DNA of 36,847 bases from Acidobacteriota bacterium (GCA_029567505.1 JAKPXO010000001.1:1-36847), one strand, 5' to 3'; positions 444-26,544 are shown, counted from the first letter of the stretch. Made by a program: numbers and translations. Notes: generated from the sequence alone by a model not told the origin.

Positions 444-1982
444 TCAGGGGGCGACCACCCTGTAGACCCACCCCATGTCGCGCGTCCCCTTCGCCGCGAG
501 CTCCGCGCGGACGCCTTTGGCTTCTTCCGCCGACGGGAACTCCCCGACCATGACGCGGAACCAGATCCCCTTCTCGCCGAGGTCGACCTCCGCGACGTAG
601 CCCTCGCGCCCGACGAGCGCCTCGATCCGCTTCAGGTCCCGCTCGGCGGCGCCACGATCCCGGTACGAGGTGAAGTGGATCGAGAAGACCTCGGGGCGAC
701 CGGCCCGGTCGCGAGTGACGACGAGACCATCCCGGCTCTGCCGGACCGGTGCGGGCGGGGCCGTCTTCACGGGGACGGGCATCGGCGCCACCAGCGCGGG
801 CGCGACCGTCGGGACGGCGCCCGGGCGTTCTCTGGGAGCGGTCGGCACGGGGACGGCGACGGGAGCCGGGGCCGTCGCGCCCTCCGCCCCCGGCGCGGCT
901 GGCACCGCGGGCTCCGGCGTCGGCGACTCCACGGGGAGCGCCTCCCTCTCGGAGGCCTCCCGGGTCGGCGCCTCGGTCATCTCCGGGGCCTGCCGGGCCA
1001 CGGCGACCCGACCGGAGTCCGCGCCCCGGTCGATCCACAGTCCGACGAGGAGGTAGCCGAGCGCCGCGAGAGCCGCGAGAGCCGCGGCGATCCCGGCGAG
1101 ACGTCCCCATCGCGGCCCGCCCTCGCGTGTCGCACCGCGACGTCCTCCGCGAGGAATCGTCAGGACGGTGTCTTCGTCGTCCTCGAAAGGTGGAGGCACC
1201 GGCTCGTCCGCCCCGGGCGGCGCGTCGAGAACGGCGGCCGTCGCCGCAGCCCCGAACTCCTCCTCCCGCTCCGGGGGGCCGGCGGCCGCGCCCCCGCCCG
1301 CGAGGACCGAGCGCAGGTCGATCGACTCGGCTTCCCGCGAGAGGCGCGTCAGGGTCTCGTCTCCGATCTCCTCCTGCGGCTCGGCCGGGAAGTCCGGAGG
1401 AGCCGGCGCCGCCTCGTCCTCCGGCAGGGCGAAGACGAAACCGCCGCCCTCGGGCGCGCGGCCCGCGGGCTCCTCGGGGACCGTGAACGGCCCGCCCGCC
1501 ACGGAATCGACCGGCTCTGCCTCGGGAGCGGAGACGGGGACCTCGTCCGCCGGGAGAGGAGGAGGAGGCTCCGCCTCGAGCGGAACCGCGACGGCCGGAG
1601 CGGCGAGCGGTTCGCGCGCCTCGCGGTCCCAGCGGAGGTCCAGCGCGCCCGTCGTCTCGGAGAACGGGTCGTCCCCGGAGGGCGGAGAAGGCGGCTCCGG
1701 CTCGAAGCTCGCGGCCGGAACGAGCGGCGGCGGCGCCGGCACGACGAGCGGCGGCGGCACCCCCGCCACGCGCGCGAGCGCCCGCTCCACGAGGACCTCG
1801 ATCGGAACGCTCTCCCCGCCGGCGTCGCGGATCCTCTTCAGCTCCTCGGCGCAGACGTCCCGCGCCGCCCGGAAAGCGACGTCGGGCTCGACCGGCGCGC
1901 GCGCCGTGAGCTCGCGGAGGACCTCCGAGACCGACGGGAGCATGCGCCTCACGCGGGAGGCGGTGAGGTCTTCTCCGCTCAT
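444..1982 (-). CDS. Transmembrane SPOR-domain protein, last gene of amidase-actin operon
   Basis: A 512-residue bitopic protein. Residues 1-75 form a small, probably helical cytoplasmic domain of no family I recognise. A long acidic, proline-rich linker covers about 76-290. One membrane helix (about 294-316, GIAAALAALAALGYLLVGLW) is followed by a Pro/Ala-rich periplasmic linker and a SPOR domain at about 428-512 (VFSIHFTSYRDRGAAERDL, then WFRVMVGEFPSAEEA). SPOR domains bind peptidoglycan glycan strands stripped of stem peptides, usually at septa. The start is set by an ATGA overlap with the actin-like gene (ATG 1982, TGA 1981-1979). A longer in-frame extension runs through that gene and is spurious. 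I infer it links the upstream actin to glycan made bare by the upstream amidase. Confidence 0.88.
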   Translation of the reverse strand: MSGEDLTASRVRRMLPSVSEVLRELTARAPVEPDVAFRAARDVCAEELKRIRDAGGESVPIEVLVERALARVAGVPPPLVVPAPPPLVPAASFEPEPPSPPSGDDPFSETTGALDLRWDREAREPLAAPAVAVPLEAEPPPPLPADEVPVSAPEAEPVDSVAGGPFTVPEEPAGRAPEGGGFVFALPEDEAAPAPPDFPAEPQEEIGDETLTRLSREAESIDLRSVLAGGGAAAGPPEREEEFGAAATAAVLDAPPGADEPVPPPFEDDEDTVLTIPRGGRRGATREGGPRWGRLAGIAAALAALAALGYLLVGLWIDRGADSGRVAVARQAPEMTEAPTREASEREALPVESPTPEPAVPAAPGAEGATAPAPVAVPVPTAPRERPGAVPTVAPALVAPMPVPVKTAPPAPVRQSRDGLVVTRDRAGRPEVFSIHFTSYRDRGAAERDLKRIEALVGREGYVAEVDLGEKGIWFRVMVGEFPSAEEAKGVRAELAAKGTRDMGWVYRVVAP

Positions 1983-2995
1983 CCGGCGAGTCGCTCCCAG
2001 TCCCCTTCCGGAGCGTCGGCGGCGATCGCGAGGGAGCCGCTCGCGCCGGCGAACACCGGGTCCTCCACCGACCGGACCCGGCCGCCGCCGACCTCCTCGA
2101 GCGCCCGCTCGAGGGCCGCCGCGAGGCCGGGGATCTGCGAGCCGCCTCCCGCGAGGACGACGTTGTTTCGCACCCGCTGCTGGTACTCGGGGTCGACGCG
2201 AGAGAGGAGATCGAGCATCGTCTCGGCGAGGGGCCCGACGAGGCTCTCGCACGCCTTCCTCATCTCCGCCGTCACCTCGAGGCGGGTCGGCTTCCCGCGG
2301 ACCGGGGCCTCGACGAAGACCGGCTCCTTCGGCTCGCCGACGAAGCTGTTCCTCTCCTTCCACTCCCGGACCATGTGGATCGAGAAGTTCGCGTCGGGGT
2401 GGCGCGCGCGAATCTGAAGCCCCAGCTGCTCGTCGACCGTGTCGCCCGCGTGGGTGAGCGTCCGCTGGTCGTCGTCCGTCGGGTAGCGCCCGTTCATGAC
2501 GCAGAAGTCGCTCGTCCCGGCGCCGATGTCGATGATCATCGTGTGGAGGAGCGCGTCCATGCCGTAGGCGACGGCGAACGGCTCCGACACCAGCAGGAGC
2601 GCGTCGGCGACCCCCTTCACGGCGTTCCGCAGGTGCTGGCGGGAGACGCGCATCGCCTCGGCCGGGACCCCGACGACGGCCTGGACAGTCTTCCCGGCGC
2701 CGCCGGCCTTCTCGATCAGGTGCGCGAGAAGCTCCCTCACGGCCGCCTCGGCCTTCGGGGAGCCCTCCTTGATGAGGCCCCTCTCGAGCGGGCGGTGGAG
2801 GTCGAGCATCGGCCGGTTCTCGAGCGCCTCGTGCCCGAAGACGACCGGCTTCTTCACGACCTTCCGGGCGACCATGTCGACGGGCCATCCGACCCAGCTC
2901 TCCACGACGTGCCGCTCGCCGTTCGAGGCACAGATCGCGCTGCGCGAGGTGCCGAGGTCGATCCCGACGTGGAGGACGTCCTTCTTGCCGCTCAT
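1979..2995 (-). CDS. MamK-like bacterial actin
   Basis: A 338-residue actin-superfamily ATPase, the usual length for MreB/MamK. Phosphate-1 loop GIDLGTSRSAI is at residues 11-21, phosphate-2 loop IIDIGAGTSDF at 154-164, and the adenosine motif VVLAGGGSQIPGL at 279-291. E138 (SEPF) and D156 match the Glu and Asp needed for hydrolysis in actins. Several stretches resemble MamK more than MreB: SNGERHVVESWVGWP, DTVDEQL with RARHP, NSFVG and PEYQQRVRNNVV. It should form ATP-dependent cytoplasmic filaments. Both ends have 4-bp ATGA overlaps, with the amidase upstream and the SPOR gene downstream, so the three are translationally coupled. No magnetosome genes are nearby, so a cell-wall role is likelier than organelle positioning. 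Confidence 0.9.
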   Translation of the reverse strand: MSGKKDVLHVGIDLGTSRSAICASNGERHVVESWVGWPVDMVARKVVKKPVVFGHEALENRPMLDLHRPLERGLIKEGSPKAEAAVRELLAHLIEKAGGAGKTVQAVVGVPAEAMRVSRQHLRNAVKGVADALLLVSEPFAVAYGMDALLHTMIIDIGAGTSDFCVMNGRYPTDDDQRTLTHAGDTVDEQLGLQIRARHPDANFSIHMVREWKERNSFVGEPKEPVFVEAPVRGKPTRLEVTAEMRKACESLVGPLAETMLDLLSRVDPEYQQRVRNNVVLAGGGSQIPGLAAALERALEEVGGGRVRSVEDPVFAGASGSLAIAADAPEGDWERLAG

Positions 2996-4005
2996 CCGTT
3001 TCCGCTCCTTCCCGCTCCCGCGAGGTTGCGTGCGTCGGCGTAGGCGCGCACGCCCCGCGCGAGCGCCTCGGCGATCGCCTCCCGGTACGCCTCGTCGCGG
3101 AGGAGGCGCGCGTCCTCCGCGTGCGAGACGCTCGAGACCTCCGCCAGGATCCCCGGCATCTCGGAGGCGATCAGGACGACGAACGGGGCGCTCTTCACGC
3201 CGCGGTCGCCGGCCTCCGGCGTGACCTTCCGCGTCGAGGCGACGAGCTCGGCCTGGACCGACTCGGCGAGCCGTCTCGACTCCGCCTGGCGAACGCCCAC
3301 GTAGACCTCCTCGAGAAGCCCCCTGAAGTCCGAAAGAGAATAGCCCGAGGAAAGGTTCTCGGCGCTCGCGAGCCGGCGGATCGCGGGGTCGTCCGTCGGG
3401 CCGAGGTAGTACGTCTCGACGCCGCGGCGATCCGGGTTGGGGATCGAGTTGACGTGGATCGAGACGAGAACGTCTCCGCCCGCGTCCCGCGCCCTTCGCG
3501 ATCGCTCGCGCAGGGAGACCGTCTCGTCCCCCTCACGGGTCATCACGACGCGAAAGAGGCCCCCGCGGAGCTTCTCCCTCACCCGCCGGGCGACGTCGAG
3601 CGTGACGTCCTTCTCGGGGAGGCCGTCGGCGGTGAGCGCCCCCGGGTCGACGCCGCCGTGTCCGGCGTCGAGGACGATCGTCCTCACGTCGAGGTGGAAG
3701 AGCGTCGGGTCGATCGACTTCGGCGCGGGCCAGTCGAGCGTCTCGAGCCCCGGCTCGGGAGATGGGGCGACCGTCCGCTGCGGCACGACGACGACCTCCG
3801 TCGGGGTGACGCCCCCGCCGGAGAAGGCGTTGATCGACGCGAAGAGCGCGAGCGGGATCGCGACCAGGGCCGCGCCGCGCACCGCCCTGCCGACCCAACG
3901 CCCTCCCGGGCGGGCGCGCGCCGGGGGCCGTCCCTCGATGACGTCGAGGTTCTCCCGCACGGCGTCGCGGAGCATCTGCTTCTTGAGCCGCTCGGCGTCT
4001 CGCAT
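2992..4005 (-). CDS. Membrane-anchored N-acetylmuramoyl-L-alanine amidase (Amidase_3)
   Basis: A 337-residue zinc amidase that would cut the bond between N-acetylmuramic acid and L-alanine in peptidoglycan. Residues 1-40 are charged and probably cytoplasmic. A membrane anchor lies at about 43-62 (RGAALVAIPLALFASINAF), and the Amidase_3 domain runs from about 108 to 322 in the periplasm. Expected zinc ligands are H116 (LDAGHGGVDPGA), E131 (GLPEKDVTLDVA) and H184 (VSIHVNS). E289 in ILAEVSSVSHAEDARLL is the likely catalytic glutamate. I chose ATG 4005 because the sequence upstream in this frame is the antisense-like extension over kynB and lacks a signal. The gene overlaps the actin start by 4 bp. 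No LysM or AMIN targeting domain is present. Confidence 0.9.
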   Translation of the reverse strand: MRDAERLKKQMLRDAVRENLDVIEGRPPARARPGGRWVGRAVRGAALVAIPLALFASINAFSGGGVTPTEVVVVPQRTVAPSPEPGLETLDWPAPKSIDPTLFHLDVRTIVLDAGHGGVDPGALTADGLPEKDVTLDVARRVREKLRGGLFRVVMTREGDETVSLRERSRRARDAGGDVLVSIHVNSIPNPDRRGVETYYLGPTDDPAIRRLASAENLSSGYSLSDFRGLLEEVYVGVRQAESRRLAESVQAELVASTRKVTPEAGDRGVKSAPFVVLIASEMPGILAEVSSVSHAEDARLLRDEAYREAIAEALARGVRAYADARNLAGAGRSGNG

Positions 4006-4060: not shown

Positions 4061-4675
4061 TCAGGGCGCGACGAGGACCGCCCGAACCGGGGAGCCGTCT
4101 CCTCCCTCGATCCGGAGCGGCAGCGCCGAGAGCTCGTAGCGGCCCGGCGGGACGTCCGCGAGGGCGAGCCCTTCGAGCCAGCAGACGCCCGCGGCGACGA
4201 GCGCCCGGTGCGCCGTGTAGGCGTGGTCGTCGTACGGGTCGACGGAGGGGGTGTCGATCCCGACGAGGACGACGCCGCGCGCCGCGAGCGCCGGGGCGAG
4301 CTCCGGATCGAGCCCCGCGAAGGCGTCATCGAACCGCTCCCGGTTCCCGAACGTCCCGGTCTTCAGGATGACCCGGGGCGCGGACGGCGGTTCGGCCAGG
4401 TCCTCGAGGCGCACGCGGCCCCGCGGTGACACCCGCGCCTCCACGACCTGGCAGGTCCCGATCCACGTCTCGAGGGGAACCTCGTCGATCGCGGCCGCCC
4501 CGGCCACCATGTGGAGCGGCGCGTCGGCGTGAGAGCCGAGGTGGAGCGTCGTCCGGATCGACGAGAAGGTCGTCCCGTCGGGAGGCGTCGTCACCTCCCG
4601 CGAGAACGGGACGTCGCCCGGCCAGACGGCGATCCGCGGCGACAGGACCGGAGAGAGGTCGTAGATCCGCGCCAC
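4061..4675 (-). CDS. kynB: Kynurenine formamidase (arylformamidase, cyclase family)
   Basis: A 204-residue cytoplasmic metal-dependent hydrolase that would convert N-formyl-L-kynurenine to kynurenine and formate, the second step of tryptophan breakdown. KynB hallmarks are DLSPVLSPRIAVWPGDVPF near the start and the metal-binding HLGSHADAPLH (H45, H49, D51, H55). GIDTPSVDPYDD follows at about 139-150, with WLEGLALADVPPGRYEL and ALPLRIEGGDGSPVRAVL near the end. Length matches the family (about 205-215). Start is GTG 4675 with a GAGGGA ribosome site just upstream. It lies 7 bp after the aromatic amino acid hydroxylase, so the two share an operon. Tryptophan dioxygenase and kynureninase are not in the window. 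Confidence 0.88.
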   Translation of the reverse strand: MARIYDLSPVLSPRIAVWPGDVPFSREVTTPPDGTTFSSIRTTLHLGSHADAPLHMVAGAAAIDEVPLETWIGTCQVVEARVSPRGRVRLEDLAEPPSAPRVILKTGTFGNRERFDDAFAGLDPELAPALAARGVVLVGIDTPSVDPYDDHAYTAHRALVAAGVCWLEGLALADVPPGRYELSALPLRIEGGDGSPVRAVLVAP

Positions 4676-4682
4676 CCGTCCC

Positions 4683-5546
4683 TCACTGCCTCTCGAGCCA
4701 CGCCGAGACGTCCTCGACCATCCGGTCGAACGAGGGGGAGACGAAGAGGAGCTCCTGGTACCGCGTCGGGTCGTACGGGATCGCGGCCGCCGCGTCGCAG
4801 TCGAGCGGGCGGATCTCGGCGTTCGACTCGAACGAGCCGAGCTCGCCGAACGAAGAGAGGAGCCCGGCGCCGACCGCCTTCCTCTGCCCCTCCTCCTCGA
4901 CGAGGCCGAACTCGAGCGTGTACCAGTAGACGTATTCGAGCCGCGCGAGCGCCGCGTCGTCGACGCGCCACGCCGCCTCGCCGAAACGCCGGGAGAGGGC
5001 CACGATGCCGGGGTGAAAGAGGCTCGCCGCGTGGCCGACGAGCTCGTGGACGACGTCCGGCTCGGGCGTGTAGAGCGGCACGGAGTGGTGACGCATGTAC
5101 TGCGTCGAGAGGAAGACCCCCTTCCCCATCATCCCGAGGAAGGTCCGCCCCTGGACGAGGCCGGCCACGGGAAGCATCTGGAAGCCGGCGCCTCTCTTCA
5201 GCGCCTCGTTCACCTCGGAAAGCTGCGGCACGCACCCTCGGTCGAGCGCGAGGGCCCTCGAGCTCTCCTTCCATTCCCGGCACGCGAACCTCTCGTGGAG
5301 CGGCGCGAGGTGCTCCCAGACGGTCCTCCAGACCGCCTGCTCGTCCTCCGTGTACTCCACGTCGGGCAGCGGCTGGCCGTCGCGGTACTCGAGCGCGAGC
5401 CGTGCGATCGCGTTCCTCCGCGCCCGGTAGACCGGGTCCTTGAAGCCCGGGTGGTCCGGGTCGAGCGGGACGAGCTCCTCCGACCCTCCGGCGTGAGGGG
5501 AGGCGCCCCGCGCCGCCTCGTCGATCTTCCGCGTGGCCTCGCTCAT
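4683..5546 (-). CDS. phhA: Biopterin-dependent aromatic amino acid hydroxylase (phenylalanine 4-monooxygenase-like)
   Basis: A 287-residue non-haem iron monooxygenase of the bacterial PhhA type, consisting of the catalytic domain alone. It should use tetrahydropterin and O2 to hydroxylate phenylalanine to tyrosine. Iron ligands are H167 and H172 (TPEPDVVHELVGHAASL) and E212 (YWYTLEFGL). The flanking YRARRNAIARLALEY, FLSTQYMRHHSVPLYT and RTFLGMM segments are typical. Start is ATG 5546; the ribosome site is weak. The neighbour 7 bp downstream is kynB, a tryptophan-pathway gene, so a tryptophan hydroxylase activity cannot be ruled out from sequence alone. Phenylalanine hydroxylase is the safer call. 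A pterin dehydratase (phhB) is not adjacent. Confidence 0.87.
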   Translation of the reverse strand: MSEATRKIDEAARGASPHAGGSEELVPLDPDHPGFKDPVYRARRNAIARLALEYRDGQPLPDVEYTEDEQAVWRTVWEHLAPLHERFACREWKESSRALALDRGCVPQLSEVNEALKRGAGFQMLPVAGLVQGRTFLGMMGKGVFLSTQYMRHHSVPLYTPEPDVVHELVGHAASLFHPGIVALSRRFGEAAWRVDDAALARLEYVYWYTLEFGLVEEEGQRKAVGAGLLSSFGELGSFESNAEIRPLDCDAAAAIPYDPTRYQELLFVSPSFDRMVEDVSAWLERQ

Positions 5547-18028: not shown

Positions 18029-21000
18029 TCAGGGCGTGGGGCAGGCCGCGCCGCCCACGAAGCCGCCGCCCGTCGGGACCGTGTTCGAGGCGAGCCCGGT
18101 CGTCCCGCCACCGCCGTTGCTGCCCTGAACGAAGGCCACGACCGCCGCGTCGTTGTTGTTCGCGCCCCCGTAGCCCGGGAGCCTCACCGTCGTCCCCTGA
18201 CGCTGGCGGAGGCGGAAGTCGGTTCCTGCGTTCGCCCCCGAACCCGTGATGTCGTTCGCGAGGGCGCCGGCCCCGCCGATGCTCGCGCAGATCAGGTACG
18301 TGTCTCCCGGCACGGTGCCGCCGTTGAGGTGGATCCCGTTCATCGGCAGGCCGCCCGTACCGGGCTGCTTGATCGTGTTCCCGGTGATGGTCACGTTCAT
18401 CGCGCCGCTCATCGGCAAAGCGCCGCCACCCGTCAGGAGCTCGATCCCGAAGTTGTTGTACCCGCGGATCTGGTTCCCCGTGATGCCCGCCGTGACCGTC
18501 CCCAGGCCCGCGTTCTGGATCTTGAGCCCGGAGCCCGCCTTCGAGCCCGAGTCGGCGACGCCGGAAACGCCGATCTGGTTGTTCACGAACGTTCCCGAGT
18601 AGGTTCCCGCCCCGGTCGACTTGACGATGAGGACGGCGGTCCCGTCCGAGTCCCGGAACGTATTGCCCGTGATGTTGTACGTGAGGCTCCCGCCGAGGTC
18701 GCCTCCGCTGATCGTCACGCCCCCGCCGCCCGTCGCGATCGCCGGGTGGTTGTTCGTCAGCGTGTTCCCCGTGAAGACGAGGTCGCAGGTGGCTGTCCCG
18801 TTGTTGATGAAGTTGAAGAGGTCGCCGCGTGCCGACGTGAAGGTGCTGTTCTGGATCGTGGCGTTCAGGATCGCGGCTCCCGTCAGCGCCTCGAGGAGGA
18901 TCCCGTCGTTTCCATCCGCCGTGCTGTTCGCCCCGATCGTCACGCTCGAGAACGTGATCCGGTTCAGGGTCCCCGACGTGTTGACCACCCGGAAGTTGTC
19001 GACGAGGCCGCCGCTGATGTTCGTGCTCGACACCGACGCCGTGCCGGTGAGCTCCGTGAACGAGACGCTCCCCTCGCGGGCACCGGCGCTGTTGCCGTTC
19101 ACCCCGCTGATGACCGAGCTCGCGAGCGTGAATCCGTTCACCGTGAGCCCGCGGATCGCGAAGTTCTGGAAGCCGTTCAGCTGCATCCGGCTCAGGGAGA
19201 CGTTCGTCGCGTTGTCGAGGTAGATCCCCGAACCGGCGACCGCCCCGTCCGCGCCGACCATGTTCTGGATCGTCCCTCCGGAACCGGCCGTGCCGGTTCC
19301 GACGACCGCGAAGCTCCCTGACGTGCGTTGGAGGTAGATCCCGTTGCTTCCGCCGTTTGCGTTGACGGTCGTCAGGCTGACCGCGAGCGGCGTCGTCCCG
19401 GCCGCCCTCGTGATCTCGACGGCCGTGGCGCCCGTGGTCGTGATCGTGCCGCCCGAGACGGTCAGGGTCCCGGCGTTCTCCGTCGCGAGGAGCCCTCGCT
19501 GGCCCGTGTCGGGGCTCACCGTGAGCGCTCCGAACGTCACGTTCCCCAGGTTCGAGGCGAGGTTCACCCCGGTCCCGCCCGAGGACGTCGCCGAGGTCGT
19601 ACCGAGGCTGATGGTCCCTCCGGCCACGGACGTCTGGACGTCGATGCCGATTCCCGCCGGGTTCGTGACCGTCGTCGTGCCCGAGGTGAAGGTCCCGCCG
19701 ATCCCTCCGAGGTTGAGCCCCTTGCCCGTGCTGCTCGAGGACGTCAGGCTCGTGAACGTGATCCCCGAGGCGCTCGCGGAGACGCCCGTCAGGTCGACGG
19801 CCGCGGCGTTCGTCGCCGACACCCCGACGCCGTTCTGGACGGTGACGCCGGTGATCGCGCCGGCCTGGTTGTCCGTGAAGCCCACGGCTCCGGTCGTGGA
19901 GATGTCGAGGGAGCTGACGAGGACGGAGCTGCCGCCGAGCGTGACCGTCCCGGTGAGCGTCGGCTTGCCCGCGGCGGCGATCGTGAGCCCCGAGCCGCCG
20001 AGCGAGAACGCTGCGCCCTGGCCCCAGAGGACCTGGTTCGCATCCAGCGTGATGGCCCCGGTGGTGGTCGCCGCGCCCGTGTGGACGAAGACGACGTCGC
20101 CGGCTCCCGACGAGACGTCGGCGTTGGCCAGGTTGTTGAAGGGCGAGCTCGAGGTCCCGACCCCGTTCGCGCCGGAGCTGTTGACGTACCAGACCTGCCC
20201 GACGAGCGTGATGGTGACGTTCGCCGCGGCCTGGGACTCGACGCCGTTGGACGTGACCTTGTACGTAAACGTCGCCGAGGTCTCCGCGCCCGCGTTCGGC
20301 GTGTAGCGGAAGGCGCCCGCCGCCCCGAGCGTCACGGTCCCGTTCGCCGGCTGCGTCAGGCTCGTCACGGTCAGGCCCGGCCCGAGGTCGTTCGAGAGGA
20401 TGTTGGTGGTGTTCGCGACGAACGGTGTCGCCGGCGTCGGCGCGTACCCGCCGCCGTAGAACTCGGTGTTCCCGGCTCCGTTCGCATAGGTGTCCAGGAC
20501 GGCGACCGGTCGGGAGTCGAGGGTGTAGTCCTTCGCGATCGTGCAGGTCGTCGCCGTGTTCGTCGCGGTGACCGTGAACGAGAAGGAGCCCGTCCCGAGC
20601 GCCCCGCCGGGGGTCCCCGTGAGGGCGCCGGTCGCGGCGTTCAGCGAGAGCCCCTCCGGCAGGGAGCCGGCGGTCACGGCGTACGTGAAGCCGCCCGAGC
20701 CGCCGCTCGCCGTGACGGCCTGGCTATAGGCCGTGCCGAACGTGGCGTCCGGAAGGGCCGCGGCCGCCGGTGCGATGTTTAGGACGTTCACGGTGTAGCT
20801 CTGTGCGCCCGCGCAGCCGTTGACGTCGGTGGCCGTGATGCTGAAGGAGAACGAGCCGGCCGCCGTGATGGTCCCCGCGAGGACGCCCGTCGTCGGGTTC
20901 AGGGTCGTTCCCGGCGGGAGGGTCCCGGTCACGCTGAAGGTGAACGGTGCCGTGCCCGCCGAGGGGGTGATCGTCGTCGTGTAGGTCGACCCGACCGTCG

Positions 21001-24000
21001 CGCAGGTCGGCACGGCGGAGAGTCCGATGACGGGGCAGATCCGGACCGTGTAGGCGCGGCTGCCCGTGCAGTTCGTCGTCGTGTCGGTCGCGGTGACCGT
21101 GAACGTGAACTCGCCTTCGGCCGACGGCGTCCCCGTGATCGCGCCGCCGGAGCCGAGCGTGAGGCCGGCGGGGAGAGCCCCGGCCGTCACGGCGAAGGTG
21201 TACGGGCCCGTGCCGCCGGCCGCCGTCACGGTCTCCGTGTAGGCCGTTCCTACGATCCCGCCCGGAGGCGTCGCCGGGCTGACCGTGATCGTCGGGCAGA
21301 CGACCGTGACCGAGAACGGAGCCGAGCCGGTGCAGGTCGCGCCGGTCGCCGAGTCGGTCGCCACGATCGTGAAGTTGAACGTCCCGGCCGCGTTCGGGGT
21401 CCCCGAGAGGACGCCCGCGCTCGACAGCGTCAGGCCGGTCGGCAGCGTGCCGGTCGCGGTGAAGGTCCAGGGCGAGACGCCGCCCGTCGCCGTGAAGGTG
21501 TGCGTGTAGCCCGCCACCCCCGCCGTCACGTTCGTCGGCGGCGCCCCGCCTCCGACGGTGATCGTGGCGCAGGCCACGACGAGCGTGTACGCCTGGTCTC
21601 CCGTGCAGCCCGTCGGGTCGTGCGTCGCGCGGACCGTGAAGTTGAACGTCCCCACCGCCGTCGGCGTGCCCGAGATCTCACCCGTCGTTGGGTTCAGCGT
21701 CAGGCCCGCCGGCAGGGCGCCGGAGAAGACCGAGTAGCCGTAGCTGCCGCCCGCGAGCGCGCTCGAGGCGGTGATCGTCTGGCTGTAGGCCGTCGCCGCC
21801 GTCGCGCCGGGCAGCGTGCCGGGCGACAGCGTGATCGTCGGGCAGGAGATCGTCAGCGGGTAGCTGCGCGAGACCGCGCAGCCGTTCGCGTCCGTCGCCG
21901 TCACCACGACCGTGAAGCTCCCCGGCTCGCCCGGAGTGCCGGACAGAGCTCCCGTCGTCGGGTCGAGCGTCAGCCCCGTCGGAAGCCCCGTGGCGCTCCA
22001 CGTGATCGTCGCCCCGCTCCCCGTCTGCGTGAAGGTGACCGGCCCGTACGCCGTCCCCACCGTCCCCGCCGCGAGGCTCGCCGGCGCGTCGATCGCCATC
22101 TCCGGGCAGATCCGCAGCGTGAAGGCCACGCTCCCCGTGCAGCCGTTGGCGTCCGTCGCCGTCACGACGACCGCGAAGCCCCCGGCTTCCGTCGGCGTCC
22201 CCGTGAGCGCTCCCGTCGCCGCGTCGAGCGTCAGCCCCGCCGGCAACCCCGTCGCGCTCCATGCGACCGGAAGGACGCCGCCCGTCTGCGCGAAGGTGGT
22301 CCCCGCGTAGACCTGGTTGATCGTCCCCTGCACCGCCGTCGCCGGCGTCACGTCGATCACCGGGCAGATCCGCACCTGGTACGCCGTCGCGCCGCTGCAC
22401 CCGTACTGGTCCGTCGCCGTGATCGTGAAGCTGAAGAGGTTCGCCGTCGTCGGCGTCCCCGTGATCGCTCCGCTCGCTCCGTCGAGAGCGAGCCCGTCCG
22501 GAAGCGCTCCGTTCGTCACCGCGTAGAGGTAGGCCCCTCCGCCGCCGGCCCCCAGGACGGTCTGGCCGTACGCCGTCCCGACCGTTCCGTTCGTGAGCGC
22601 CCCCGGTCCCACCGTGATCGTCGGGCAGACGATGACGACCGTGTAGGCCTGGCTCCCCGTGCAGCCGTTCCCGTCCGTCGCCACCACCGTGAAGCTGAAG
22701 GTCCCCGCCGCCGTCGGCGTCCCCGTGATCGCTCCCGTCGCCCCGTCCAGCCCGAGGCCGGGGGGAAGCGTGCCGGGCGCCACCGAGTACGTCACCGTCC
22801 CGAGGCCGCCCGTCGACCCGACGCTCTGGCTGTAGGCGATGCCCGTCGTGCCGCCCGGCAGCGTCGCCGGGCTCACCGTGATCACCGGGCACTCCACCAC
22901 GAGCGTGTAGGCCCGCGTCCCCGTGCACCCGTTCGCGTCCGTCGCCGTGACCGTGATGTCGAACGTCCCCGTCACCGTCGGCGTCCCCGAGAGGACCCCC
23001 GCCGTCGTCAGGGTGATCCCCGCAGGCAGCGCCCCGGTCGTCACGGCGTACGTCACCGCCCCGACTCCGCCCGCCTGCGTCAGCGTCACCGGCCCGTACG
23101 CCGTCCCCGCCGTCGCGTTGGAAAGGCTCGCCGGGCTGACCGTGATCACCGGGCAGTCCACGACCAGCGTGAGCGCCCGCGTCCCCGTGCACCCGTTGGC
23201 GTCCGTCGCCGTGACCGTGAAGTTGAACGTCCCCGTGACCGTCGGCGTCCCCGAGAGGACCCCCGCCGTCGTCAGCGTCACGCCCGCCGGCAGCGCCCCG
23301 GTCGTCACGGCGTACGTCACCGTTCCGACCCCGCCCGTCTGCGTCAACGTCACCGGCCCGTATGCCACCCCTGCCGTCCCGTTCGAAAGGCTCGCCGGGC
23401 TCACCGTGATGACCGGGCACTCCACCACGAGCGTGTAGGACTGCGTCCCCGTGCACCCGTTCGCGTCGGTCGCCGTCACGGTGAAGCTGAAGGTCCCCGT
23501 GACGGTCGGCGTCCCCGAGAGGAGCCCGGCGCTCGTCAGCGTCAGTCCGGCCGGAAGCGCTCCGGTCGTGACGGCGTACGTCACCACCCCGACTCCACCC
23601 GTCTGCGTCAGCGTCGCCGGCCCGTAGGCCACACCCGCCGTCCCGTTCGAAAGGCTCGCCGGGCTGATCGTGATCGTCGGGCAGCTCACCGTGAGCGTCG
23701 TCGCGAGGGTCCCGGTGCAGCCGAGGGAGTCGGTCGCGGTGACGGAGAAGGGGAACGTCCCGACGACGGTCGGCGTGCCGGACAGGACTCCCGTGGCGCC
23801 GTCGAAGGTGACGCCCGTCGGGAGAGCGCCCGCGGTGACCGCGAACGTCGTCGGGCCGACCGCGCCGGAGGCCGTGAAGGTGGTCGGCGCGATCGCCACG
23901 CCGGCCGTCGCCGCCGGAAGGGTCGCCGTGACTCCGATGGGGTTACAGACCAGGATCGGGCGCGCGACCGTTAGGTCGCAGCCGTTCGCGTCGCGATAGG

Positions 24001-26236
24001 TGATCTCGACGTCGAACTGGCCCGCCTCGGTCGGCGTGCCCTCGATCCGGCCGCTGCTCGAGACCGTGAGGCCCGGCGGGAGGCGGCGCCCCGCGAACGT
24101 GCCGGAACCGGAGCCCCCAGTGACGGTCAGGGCGACCGTCGGGTAGGGAGCTCCGACCGTCCCGGCCGGAAGGCCCGCGGGCGCGATCGACATCGGCGGG
24201 CAGCCGACCTCGATCCTGTAGGCTCGCTCTCCGGTGCAGCCGTTGGCGTCCGTGACGGCGACGGTGAACGAGGCCGCCCCGGCCTCGACCGGCGTCCCCC
24301 CGAGGAAGCCCGACGGGGTGAGGGTGAGGCCGGCGGGGAGCTCGCCTTCCGAGATCCGGAAAGCGAGCGGCGGACGGCCGGCCGCGGCCGTGAAGGAGAC
24401 CCCCGGGTACGGCTCGCCGACCGTGGGCACGGGGAGCGTCTCGGGCTCGAGCGCCAGGTCTCCGCAGACCGCGATCTGGAGCGTCCGCGTCTTCACGCAG
24501 CTTCCCTTCCGGACCTTCAGCGTCACCTCGACGGGGCCGGCTCCCGGGAAGGAGGTCTTGTACGACCGGGCGTCCTTGTCGAGCTGGAGCTCAGGGCCGG
24601 AGCCGATCCGGATCGACTGGGAGGTCAGGTTCGCGGTCGGCGGATCGATCGCGAGCGTCCAGGAGAGCGTCGTCTCGACGCCCGGAATCACCGGGAGCGG
24701 CGTCGCCTCGAGCGTGAGGATGGCGACCTTCGAGCAGTCGCCTCCTCCCGGGAGGCCGAACGAGCGCGTGACGGCGTCGCCCGAGCCGTTGTCGATCTGG
24801 CTCACGTAGGCGTCGAGGGCACCCTGCTCGACCGTGACGTCGATGCGCGAGTTCGGCGGGACCGTGGCGAGGGAGAGCCCGTCGCGCGAGGTCGCGCCCG
24901 CGAGGGCCGACGCGAACCAGTCGGCGACGCCGAGCTGGCCCCATTCGCCGGGTGCCCTCTGGAACGGCGTCCGCCCCTGCTCGGCTCCGCGCTCGTCCCG
25001 GAGGACGAGGGCCCCGGCCGCCCCCTCGGGGCCGCCGACGAGCGCGAGGTTCGTCCGCGTCCCGGGGACGTTCAGCGTCTGGTCGATCCCCGTGAAGTAG
25101 CCGGTCGAGCCCGCGGCGAGGAGCCCCGTCGGCCAGATCGAGACGAACTGCTGCGCCGAGAAGGTCCCCGTCCGGACTCCGGTCGGGTCGAGGTTGTTCG
25201 TCCGCGCCGCCACGAGGAGCGGCGTGTCCGCGGAGACGAGGAGGGCGCTCGCCGTCTGCTCGGGGAAGCCGAGGAAAGCGAGGACCCGCGGCACCTCCAC
25301 GATCCCGTTCGCGGGAATCGGGACGGGCGCGCTCGCCGCCGAGGGCGCGCCGAGGGAGCGGACCGTCGCGACGACCGGCTCGGCGCCCGGGTTGAAGAGG
25401 CGCAGGTCCGTGACCCAGAAGGCGCCGAGGTGGCCCGGCGAGAGGGCGGCGCCCGAGACGAGACGCTCGGTCGAGCCCGCGGGGACCCGCTCGCACGGGA
25501 GCGCGATCGCGTCGGAGGTGACGTTGTCGTTGACGACGGCGTAGGCCGTCGCCCGGCCGGCCTTCACCTCGAACGCCGCGCGGCCGACCGGAAGAGACTC
25601 CTCACCGGCGATCGCCGTCACCGGCTGCTGCCAGACCTGCGGGGCCGCGGCCGAGAGGGTCGTCTCGCCGGCCAGGCTCCCGTCGGCCTCGAAGACGCGG
25701 ACGACGACGACCGTTCCCGGGTCCACGAGGGTCACGGAGAGATTCGTACGGTAGCCGGTCTTCGGGTCGGCCGAGTGGCTCACCCAGATCGAATGCCCCG
25801 TCTCGCCGGTCGCGAGAAGCTCCGCCTCCGGCACCGCGCCGAGGCCCAGCCCGTAAGGCCCCTCGGCCGCGGCGACGTTGCGCGTCGTGAGGCTCGCGAG
25901 GAGCGGTGTCTCCGAAGCGACCGTGATCGTGCCGGCGCTTCCCTCCGCGAGGCCGAAGAGCGTCTTCAGGGCGGCCTCGATCCGCAGGCTCTCGCCCGCC
26001 GCGAGCGTTCGCGTGACCGGAGCGGGCGTCGTCATGCCGGCCATCGGGACGAGCCCGACCGTCGCCGTCACCGCGGCGTCACCCGGGTTCGCCAGCTCGA
26101 GGGTCGAAGAGAATCGCGCGCCCTGGAGGCCGGAGAGCTCGGCCGCGCCCGGCAAGTAGGTCGTCTCCGCGACGAGGAGCGGCGACGAGCCGAGGAGGGC
26201 GGCCAGAACGAGCCCGAGGGCGATGCGCTTCGTCAT
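18029..26236 (-). CDS. Giant secreted Ig-repeat and beta-helix surface protein (2,735 aa)
   Basis: Signal peptide at residues 1-23 (cut near LLVA). A beta-rich N-terminal region runs to about 590. Fifteen tandem Ig-like repeats of about 88 residues (He_PIG type, LPAGLTLT..G.LSGTPT..GTF.FTVTATD.NGC.G) cover about 591-1907. A cadherin/VCBS-like module (ILSNDLGPGLTVTSLTQPANG) lies near 1940-2010. A long parallel beta-helix from about 2015 to the end is rich in ITGNTF, NNQIGV and SFTELTGTASV turns. Most Ig units start with Cys and carry a second Cys in NGCTG, suggesting one disulphide per unit. ATG 26236 is preferred to ATG 26251 because GAGG lies 9 bp before it. No LPxTG, IPTL or autotransporter barrel is visible, so anchoring is unclear. 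Probably an adhesin; first gene of the collar operon. Confidence 0.88.
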   Translation of the reverse strand: MTKRIALGLVLAALLGSSPLLVAETTYLPGAAELSGLQGARFSSTLELANPGDAAVTATVGLVPMAGMTTPAPVTRTLAAGESLRIEAALKTLFGLAEGSAGTITVASETPLLASLTTRNVAAAEGPYGLGLGAVPEAELLATGETGHSIWVSHSADPKTGYRTNLSVTLVDPGTVVVVRVFEADGSLAGETTLSAAAPQVWQQPVTAIAGEESLPVGRAAFEVKAGRATAYAVVNDNVTSDAIALPCERVPAGSTERLVSGAALSPGHLGAFWVTDLRLFNPGAEPVVATVRSLGAPSAASAPVPIPANGIVEVPRVLAFLGFPEQTASALLVSADTPLLVAARTNNLDPTGVRTGTFSAQQFVSIWPTGLLAAGSTGYFTGIDQTLNVPGTRTNLALVGGPEGAAGALVLRDERGAEQGRTPFQRAPGEWGQLGVADWFASALAGATSRDGLSLATVPPNSRIDVTVEQGALDAYVSQIDNGSGDAVTRSFGLPGGGDCSKVAILTLEATPLPVIPGVETTLSWTLAIDPPTANLTSQSIRIGSGPELQLDKDARSYKTSFPGAGPVEVTLKVRKGSCVKTRTLQIAVCGDLALEPETLPVPTVGEPYPGVSFTAAAGRPPLAFRISEGELPAGLTLTPSGFLGGTPVEAGAASFTVAVTDANGCTGERAYRIEVGCPPMSIAPAGLPAGTVGAPYPTVALTVTGGSGSGTFAGRRLPPGLTVSSSGRIEGTPTEAGQFDVEITYRDANGCDLTVARPILVCNPIGVTATLPAATAGVAIAPTTFTASGAVGPTTFAVTAGALPTGVTFDGATGVLSGTPTVVGTFPFSVTATDSLGCTGTLATTLTVSCPTITISPASLSNGTAGVAYGPATLTQTGGVGVVTYAVTTGALPAGLTLTSAGLLSGTPTVTGTFSFTVTATDANGCTGTQSYTLVVECPVITVSPASLSNGTAGVAYGPVTLTQTGGVGTVTYAVTTGALPAGVTLTTAGVLSGTPTVTGTFNFTVTATDANGCTGTRALTLVVDCPVITVSPASLSNATAGTAYGPVTLTQAGGVGAVTYAVTTGALPAGITLTTAGVLSGTPTVTGTFDITVTATDANGCTGTRAYTLVVECPVITVSPATLPGGTTGIAYSQSVGSTGGLGTVTYSVAPGTLPPGLGLDGATGAITGTPTAAGTFSFTVVATDGNGCTGSQAYTVVIVCPTITVGPGALTNGTVGTAYGQTVLGAGGGGAYLYAVTNGALPDGLALDGASGAITGTPTTANLFSFTITATDQYGCSGATAYQVRICPVIDVTPATAVQGTINQVYAGTTFAQTGGVLPVAWSATGLPAGLTLDAATGALTGTPTEAGGFAVVVTATDANGCTGSVAFTLRICPEMAIDAPASLAAGTVGTAYGPVTFTQTGSGATITWSATGLPTGLTLDPTTGALSGTPGEPGSFTVVVTATDANGCAVSRSYPLTISCPTITLSPGTLPGATAATAYSQTITASSALAGGSYGYSVFSGALPAGLTLNPTTGEISGTPTAVGTFNFTVRATHDPTGCTGDQAYTLVVACATITVGGGAPPTNVTAGVAGYTHTFTATGGVSPWTFTATGTLPTGLTLSSAGVLSGTPNAAGTFNFTIVATDSATGATCTGSAPFSVTVVCPTITVSPATPPGGIVGTAYTETVTAAGGTGPYTFAVTAGALPAGLTLGSGGAITGTPSAEGEFTFTVTATDTTTNCTGSRAYTVRICPVIGLSAVPTCATVGSTYTTTITPSAGTAPFTFSVTGTLPPGTTLNPTTGVLAGTITAAGSFSFSITATDVNGCAGAQSYTVNVLNIAPAAAALPDATFGTAYSQAVTASGGSGGFTYAVTAGSLPEGLSLNAATGALTGTPGGALGTGSFSFTVTATNTATTCTIAKDYTLDSRPVAVLDTYANGAGNTEFYGGGYAPTPATPFVANTTNILSNDLGPGLTVTSLTQPANGTVTLGAAGAFRYTPNAGAETSATFTYKVTSNGVESQAAANVTITLVGQVWYVNSSGANGVGTSSSPFNNLANADVSSGAGDVVFVHTGAATTTGAITLDANQVLWGQGAAFSLGGSGLTIAAAGKPTLTGTVTLGGSSVLVSSLDISTTGAVGFTDNQAGAITGVTVQNGVGVSATNAAAVDLTGVSASASGITFTSLTSSSSTGKGLNLGGIGGTFTSGTTTVTNPAGIGIDVQTSVAGGTISLGTTSATSSGGTGVNLASNLGNVTFGALTVSPDTGQRGLLATENAGTLTVSGGTITTTGATAVEITRAAGTTPLAVSLTTVNANGGSNGIYLQRTSGSFAVVGTGTAGSGGTIQNMVGADGAVAGSGIYLDNATNVSLSRMQLNGFQNFAIRGLTVNGFTLASSVISGVNGNSAGAREGSVSFTELTGTASVSSTNISGGLVDNFRVVNTSGTLNRITFSSVTIGANSTADGNDGILLEALTGAAILNATIQNSTFTSARGDLFNFINNGTATCDLVFTGNTLTNNHPAIATGGGGVTISGGDLGGSLTYNITGNTFRDSDGTAVLIVKSTGAGTYSGTFVNNQIGVSGVADSGSKAGSGLKIQNAGLGTVTAGITGNQIRGYNNFGIELLTGGGALPMSGAMNVTITGNTIKQPGTGGLPMNGIHLNGGTVPGDTYLICASIGGAGALANDITGSGANAGTDFRLRQRQGTTVRLPGYGGANNNDAAVVAFVQGSNGGGGTTGLASNTVPTGGGFVGGAACPTP
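20517..24466 (-). repeat. Fifteen tandem Ig-like repeat units inside the giant gene
   Basis: Unit starts can be read from the recurring CPxI(T/D)VSP segment, each 84-91 codons apart. The first unit starts at 24466 (CGDLALEPETLP) and the last ends near 20517 (CTIAKDYTLDS). Units 4 to 6 are nearly identical, units 7, 11 and 13 are close relatives, and units 1, 2, 14 and 15 are the most diverged. This fits growth by internal duplication from the middle. Confidence 0.85.
22892..23683 (-). repeat. Three near-identical 264-bp units
   Basis: Ig units 6, 5 and 4 occupy 22892-23155, 23156-23419 and 23420-23683, each exactly 264 bp (88 codons). The same landmark (around ATCACCGGGCA) recurs at 22881, 23145, 23409 and 23673. 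DNA similarity is high even at third positions, so duplication or gene conversion was recent relative to the outer units. Unit number here may vary between strains and be prone to misassembly. Confidence 0.85.
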
Positions 26237-26544
26237 CTTTCTTGACCTCATGGAATCAGCAGGGAGCTTCGATTCAGGGAGGGGCTGGCGCTGGGACGAG
26301 GGGCCGGAGAGCTCAGCGAAGAGCCGGGAGCAGGACGGCCACGAGGGCTGGAGGTCTGGACTAGACGGGGGACCAGACGGACGCTACCACGGTCAGGTTC
26401 GAACACGGATCGATTCTCAATGTAATCCCTTTCCGGTCCGGAACGAAACTTTCGGGCGCATCGGGCGTAGCCGCTATATGTGCCGCACCGGCGCGGTGTA
26501 CGAACTGTGACCTTGCGTCACACTCTTCGAGGAGGACTTGCCCC
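26237..26544. promoter_or_regulatory. Divergent promoter region between giant gene and tldD
   Basis: These 308 bp hold no credible gene; short open frames here lack ribosome sites and family signals. The part from 26401 to 26480 is noticeably richer in A and T than its surroundings and should carry the promoters of both flanking operons. A TATATG (26475-26480) could be the -10 of tldD, with no convincing -35. An odd palindrome CGAAA-C-TTTCG lies at about 26444-26454. Toward the giant gene I see no clear box, only an A/T-richer stretch around TGTAATCCC. Confidence 0.5.
26506..26522 (+). promoter_or_regulatory. Perfect palindrome TGTGAC-N5-GTCACA before tldD
   Basis: A 6-bp perfect inverted repeat with a five-base spacer, 22 bp upstream of the tldD start and just before its ribosome site. 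It resembles CRP/FNR-family half-sites (TGTGA/TCACA), but the halves are 7 bp apart, not the usual 6, so it may be a different regulator's operator or a small RNA hairpin in the leader. Confidence 0.35.

Follow-up and report, generated by a model that had tools for sequence, protein, structure and literature searches.

A membrane-anchored amidase encoded beside a MamK-like actin points to a probable actin-guided peptidoglycan amidase module

We analysed a 36,847-nucleotide stretch of DNA from an Acidobacteriota bacterium (GCA_029567505.1, JAKPXO010000001.1:1-36847; hereafter the window), in which three minus-strand genes, running from 4005 to 444, encode in order an N-acetylmuramoyl-L-alanine amidase, a MamK-like actin and a SPOR-domain protein. 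The amidase and actin genes are a real module, and their adjacency in several phyla and their joint presence and absence strongly support the two proteins working together. From these sequence data, an actin-guided peptidoglycan amidase module is the likely product of the operon. An earlier account of this DNA, the sequence-only reading, had proposed that all three proteins form a filament-to-cell-wall machine encoded by genes with two ATGA overlaps. Both four-base overlaps are present on the minus strand, one between the amidase stop and actin start (2992-2995) and the other between the actin stop and SPOR gene start (1979-1982). The host assembly is of the metagenome type (5.1 Mb in 532 contigs, with the operon on contig G000:C62).

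The window actin is 96% identical to that of a member of the Thermoanaerobaculia, a class of the Acidobacteriota (L155), to which the host genome probably also belongs, and orthologues within the genus share 92-96% identity. The actin is present in 45 of 61 close genomes, in 88 of the 111 near-complete class genomes, and in 46 of 396 genomes drawn from the phylum, four of which lie outside the class. In all 60 loci of the phylum that were read in detail, including these four, the amidase gene is immediately upstream of the actin gene on the same strand, mostly within 30 bp. The other neighbours are not common to different families. The paired type of amidase was found in every one of the 88 class genomes that have the actin (E = 1e-55 or better, except in G044, where the match to a broken amidase adjoining the actin is 6e-35), with the two genes on different contigs in two cases. 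It was found in none of the 23 class genomes without the actin, three of them assigned to this group by subtraction; these genomes have only weaker, housekeeping matches (best E 2e-37 or weaker). In G044 the amidase gene falls into two frames, next to an actin gene that is intact (L045); either the gene is broken or the assembly is in error. Because the actin-free genomes are spread over several families, the pair seems to have been lost jointly and repeatedly, a pattern taken from that spread and not from events counted on a species tree. No plasmid-borne relatives were found.

The same neighbourhoods bear on the suggestion, also made in the sequence-only reading, that the proteins place an envelope structure. 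In such a scheme the module would open holes in the wall for a pilus, a secretion system or another actin-positioned appendage, which would suit both the positioning function of MamK and the dispensability of the pair in several lineages. However, across the 40 neighbourhoods compared the pair has no conserved third gene of any sort next to it, and we regard this role as quite improbable.

We extended the analysis beyond the phylum by scanning GTDB genomes with a profile of the acidobacterial actin, which returned 80 named loci. The amidase gene is directly upstream of the actin gene at all named loci scoring at least 468 bits, which come from Nitrospirota, Rokubacteria, Desulfobulbaceae and one more delta-type bin, Syntrophobacteraceae, Gammaproteobacteria and Acidobacteriota. 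It is upstream at none of the named loci scoring 437 bits or less, which come from Planctomycetota, Omnitrophota, Desulfamplus, SAR324 and Magnetospirillum. Maximum-likelihood analysis places the amidase-linked actins in one clade (support 99/99) apart from the magnetosome MamKs, and a larger, quicker tree that includes MreB recovers the same clade (SH-aLRT 91). A sister sequence (L149), which is too near the start of its contig for the upstream gene to be told, was omitted from the more careful tree. Since bins can carry misassigned contigs, the phylum labels of single loci are provisional; the pair itself is independent of these labels. A cation-efflux gene cluster occurs near several of the MamK-like actins (including L165, L168, L183, L190, L198, L204 and L205) and at no amidase-linked locus. 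Two further MamK-like actins, from bins titled euryarchaeote or Poseidoniales (L200 and L201), form a separate branch and could be archaeal or mis-binned.

The actin itself (338 residues; 1979-2995, minus strand) resembles MamK, as had been proposed. It matches the NCBIfam MamK model NF040964 with E = 2.9e-111, although its score of 371.7 bits is below the curated cut-off of 400; the amidase-linked actins of loci L132 and L129 do clear that cut-off (432 and 412 bits). MamK is also the nearest solved structure by sequence (E = 1e-77), and the AlphaFold model (pLDDT 93) ranks the MamK filament subunit 5ljv first (TM-score 0.92), followed by BeeR and then MreB. Glu138, which is invariant in 25 relatives, aligns to the catalytic E143 of MamK, so that both the MamK-type subunit fold and the catalytic glutamate are present. 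Identity with MamK over the structural alignment is about 41%; the window actin differs from the MamK of magnetotactic bacteria in belonging to a separate clade, in having an amidase as its partner and in having no magnetosome genes seen nearby. The latter agrees with the sequence-only reading and applies to the scanned neighbours in the window, the whole genome not having been searched for mam genes. Local context and clade argue against a magnetosome gene. The NF040964 model also passes on the actins of loci L132, L129 and L172, beside which no magnetosome genes were seen, and a MamK annotation is therefore no evidence of magnetotaxis.

Canonical MreB is ruled out by score, by structure and by a separate mreB cluster. 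The window actin matches Pfam MreB_Mbl with E = 6e-20 and scores 45-65 bits with the NCBIfam MreB models, against cut-offs of 293-515. The genome encodes its canonical MreB elsewhere (G000:C228, 482 bits with the Pfam model), adjoined by mreC, a PBP2-type transpeptidase gene and a RodA/FtsW-type gene, and the window actin is thus an extra actin. The module shares with the MreB-RodZ or MreBCD elongasome the possible coupling of an actin to wall enzymes through membrane proteins, but MreB here is a separate gene with its own mreC-PBP2-rodA cluster. The BeeR actins of Verrucomicrobiota (PMC11929497) are likewise non-magnetosome relatives of MamK, but are more distant from the window actin (220 bits, against 372 for MamK and a BeeR cut-off of 530) and have an N-terminal extension of 30-50 residues that it lacks. 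The window actin thus belongs to a clade beside MamK, and is not MamK by the NCBI cut-off, nor MreB, nor BeeR.

The partner of the actin is a 337-residue protein of the Amidase_3 family (2992-4005, minus strand; Pfam E = 1.2e-47). Its predicted transmembrane (TM) helix spans about residues 45-63 (3817-3873; hydropathy 1.78; helix 35-60 in the AlphaFold model) and is flanked by five Lys or Arg residues on the N-terminal side and one on the C-terminal side. From this positive-inside distribution, the protein is predicted to have its N terminus in the cytoplasm and its catalytic domain (3046-3678; PF01520 match) in the periplasm, which bears out the earlier description of a membrane-anchored amidase. 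His116, Glu131, His184 and Glu289 are invariant in an alignment of 20 relatives, and the zinc ligands and catalytic glutamate of the AmiA/B/C type are all present. The closest structure is that of E. coli AmiA, with a TM-score of 0.83 over the target, and the model contains an AmiA-like extra helix at residues 224-233. The paired genomes examined keep at least one further Amidase_3 gene, so the paired amidase is probably specialised and not the sole enzyme separating daughter cells.

What could tie this enzyme to the filament is suggested by its cytoplasmic tail. An N-terminal helix at residues 7-23 of this 40-residue tail (3937-3987, minus strand; LKKQMLRDAVRENLDVI) is conserved in intact paired amidases from Acidobacteriota to Gammaproteobacteria, for example as LKSAILRGVYDENLRMN in Desulfobulbus, and we propose it as an actin-docking motif. 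When 20 amidases are aligned, no column ahead of the catalytic domain is invariant except Asn19, and the core motif fits all 26 intact amidase tails in the named loci. AlphaFold predicts residues 2-23 to be helical with modest confidence (pLDDT about 66). With the tail profile, no housekeeping amidase from the same genomes scores above 0.7 bits, and several of these enzymes plainly start with signal-peptide-like segments. The presence of the asparagine in 51 of 51 tails in this housekeeping comparison follows by construction because the residue itself was used for anchoring, a circularity from which the 20-amidase alignment is free.

A precedent for such a tether is the bactofilin BacA and the M23 endopeptidase LmdC of Hyphomonas and Rhodospirillum, in which residues 1-38 of the LmdC inner tail directly bind the bactofilin (PMC10945521). 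As in that system, a predicted bitopic peptidoglycan hydrolase with a short, conserved inner N-terminal tail is encoded beside a cytoskeletal polymer; binding of the polymer has been shown for LmdC and is proposed here. The two systems differ in that the polymer is a bactofilin and not an actin, the enzyme an endopeptidase and not an amidase, and the tail a beta-hairpin and not a helix, and LmdC has no SPOR partner. By this analogy the amidase tail is probably a docking helix that ties the enzyme to the filament.

Alternatively, the actin could be a switch and not a track: an ATP-driven membrane switch that activates the amidase through its inner tail, as FtsEX does via EnvC, and forms no long filaments. 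The amidase is of the AmiA/B/C type and has an extra helix like that of regulated enzymes, and the tail motif would account for coupling even if no filament were formed. Against this, the actin keeps the MamK-like filament architecture, as its TM-score of 0.92 to the filament subunit indicates, and a conserved PEYQ loop beside the position of A278, mutation of which blocks MamK polymerisation; the operon also lacks an FtsX-like partner. We therefore regard a switch as unlikely. A different possibility is that amidase and actin are merely co-transcribed in one operon and act separately. This would leave unexplained their perfect co-presence across 111 genomes, the survival of the pair while all other neighbours shuffle, the single clade of amidase-linked actins across phyla and an invariant cytoplasmic asparagine in an enzyme that acts outside the membrane, and we consider it very improbable.

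A motif similar to the amidase tail also occurs beside MamK-like actins that have no amidase. We ran a profile trained on amidase tails alone on 48 such loci, and the gene directly upstream of the actin scored highly at its C-terminal end. When the best of several open reading frames (ORFs) is taken at each locus, the score lies above the 99th percentile of 1,940 other ORF ends at 27 of the 48 loci and above the highest of these ends at 17; with all upstream ORFs included, a rank test yields P = 1e-10. A simple pattern, drawn up post hoc once the hits had been seen, is present in 34 of the 48 genes upstream and in 7 of the 1,940 others. Examples are a GGDEF protein (L172; QKKELLSALFDANLRMK) and a Nitrospirota protein (L179; LLKTIVRENIDIMEG), to be compared with MLRDAVRENLDVIEG in the window. 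The independent cases are the amidases, a planctomycete family, the family of L179, L183, L190 and L168, which comes mostly from loci with cation-efflux genes of the magnetosome-cluster kind, and one or two more. The motif was not found upstream at the Magnetospirillum-type loci L198 and L204, and is thus not universal. On this evidence, it seems about as likely as not that a single short terminal helix (two hydrophobic residues, any two, two hydrophobic, any two, Asn) is what MamK-like actins generally recognise on otherwise unrelated partners. The helix would then be found in amidase inner tails in several phyla, at the C termini of planctomycete GGDEF or coiled-coil proteins and, in several deep-branching bacteria that appear to be magnetotactic, at the C terminus of the protein whose gene immediately precedes mamK.

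The planctomycete MamK-like actins (L172:4944-5942, L167:4737-5873, L158, L170, L187 and others) share an upstream partner that is conserved. Its N-terminal part varies, being GGDEF in L172, and its coiled-coil-like C-terminal region ends in KKELMxxIFxANLxL.

The third gene of the window encodes a 512-residue protein (444-1982, minus strand) with a SPOR domain at residues 437-499 (486-674; PF05036, E = 3.3e-8, 34.2 bits against a gathering score of 21). It is predicted to cross the membrane once (residues 295-313; 1044-1100, from hydropathy and charge), and with five Lys or Arg residues on the N-terminal side of the helix and two on the C-terminal side, the SPOR domain would lie outside. The sizeable cytoplasmic part described earlier is therefore borne out at about 290 residues, and comprises an N-terminal region conserved in an alignment of 12 orthologues (about 70 residues, taken as 1-75; 1758-1982), a conserved stretch DPFSETTGALDLRW (DPFxETTGALDLRW; 1629-1670) and a Pro-rich linker. 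The N-terminal region has no confident family assignment (DUF2336, E = 0.009 only), and the FtsN model TIGR02223 scores 11.3 bits against a cut-off of 107.65. No copy of the tail motif was found in the window SPOR protein, whose best score is -7.6 bits; the amidase, itself part of the training set, reaches 48.7.

A SPOR protein with this N-terminal region is the third gene in the family of the window, in another family belonging to the same order and in a single genus from a further family. In three Nitrospirota loci the gene right after the actin encodes a different protein, a fusion of a response-regulator receiver domain, a TM helix and a SPOR domain (L128:1915-3264, L129:2099-3322 and L195:7057-8127; SPOR E = 2e-12 to 5e-15); similar fusions also occur elsewhere in Nitrospirota genomes. 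The pair has therefore acquired a SPOR protein with a cytoplasmic part on at least two occasions and in different forms, in support of a functional tie. Because most lineages have no SPOR gene beside the pair, SPOR is ruled out as a universal link; in these genomes, SPOR genes located elsewhere match the window SPOR domain only weakly and lack its N-terminal part. The SPOR protein thus probably does not provide the main link to the filament, for which the amidase tail appears the better candidate. Of the proposed trio, then, what is conserved across phyla is the pair; the three-gene set with this type of SPOR protein is seen in the window's order and in a single genus from a further family, and SPOR proteins stand as recurrent third members.

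In the mechanism that we favour, the actin would polymerise in the cytoplasm with ATP, and the amidase would sit in the inner membrane with its enzyme domain outside and its short inner helix docked on the filament, which would thereby set where peptide stems are cut off the glycan. Binding of denuded glycan is known for the SPOR domain family (PMC6895207), and in the window's order of Acidobacteriota the SPOR domain could sense the product of the amidase in this way, with the large inner part of the protein (its conserved N terminus and DPFxETTGALDLRW) reporting to the filament or to other partners for local reinforcement. The site of action might be the division septum or a pole. In the septal loop of FtsA, FtsN and AmiA/B/C in E. 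coli, the FtsN inner tail binds the actin FtsA while its SPOR domain binds amidase products (PMC8998562). The window operon and this loop have three components in common: an actin-fold protein, a SPOR protein that crosses the membrane once and has an inner tail, and an amidase producing denuded glycan. By this analogy the self-guiding and septation roles suggested by the sequence-only reading are plausible. The differences are that the actin in E. coli is FtsA and that its amidases are periplasmic and switched on by FtsEX-EnvC, whereas the window amidase has its own inner tail and forms one gene pair with the actin. The E. coli genes of the loop are unlinked.

Several points weigh against this mechanism. 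The SPOR feedback step cannot be general, most lineages having no SPOR gene beside the pair. An amidase with an AmiA-like extra helix may, judging from the model, require a separate activator. The motif scores outside the amidases are graded, and the independent cases of the motif are few because most planctomycete partners are one homologous family by BLAST.

Elsewhere in the window, the region upstream of the operon (4061-5546, minus strand) contains a cyclase-family gene (PF04199) adjoining a gene for a biopterin-dependent aromatic amino acid hydroxylase (PF00351), and 18029-26251 (minus strand) is one ORF of 2,740 codons.

We found no published description of a MamK-type actin linked to a wall enzyme in the open-licence literature searched, and how MamK contacts its partners in deep-branching groups is only beginning to be mapped (PMC12748827). 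If the mechanism is correct, the widespread non-magnetosomal MamK-like actins would gain a job, and an actin would steer wall cleavage directly and not wall synthesis. The 17-residue docking motif that it supplies would also be relevant to cultured magnetotactic bacteria. Should the motif be recognised by MamK-like actins in general, one adaptor system would serve both the magnetosome filament and an actin-guided wall-cutting machine.

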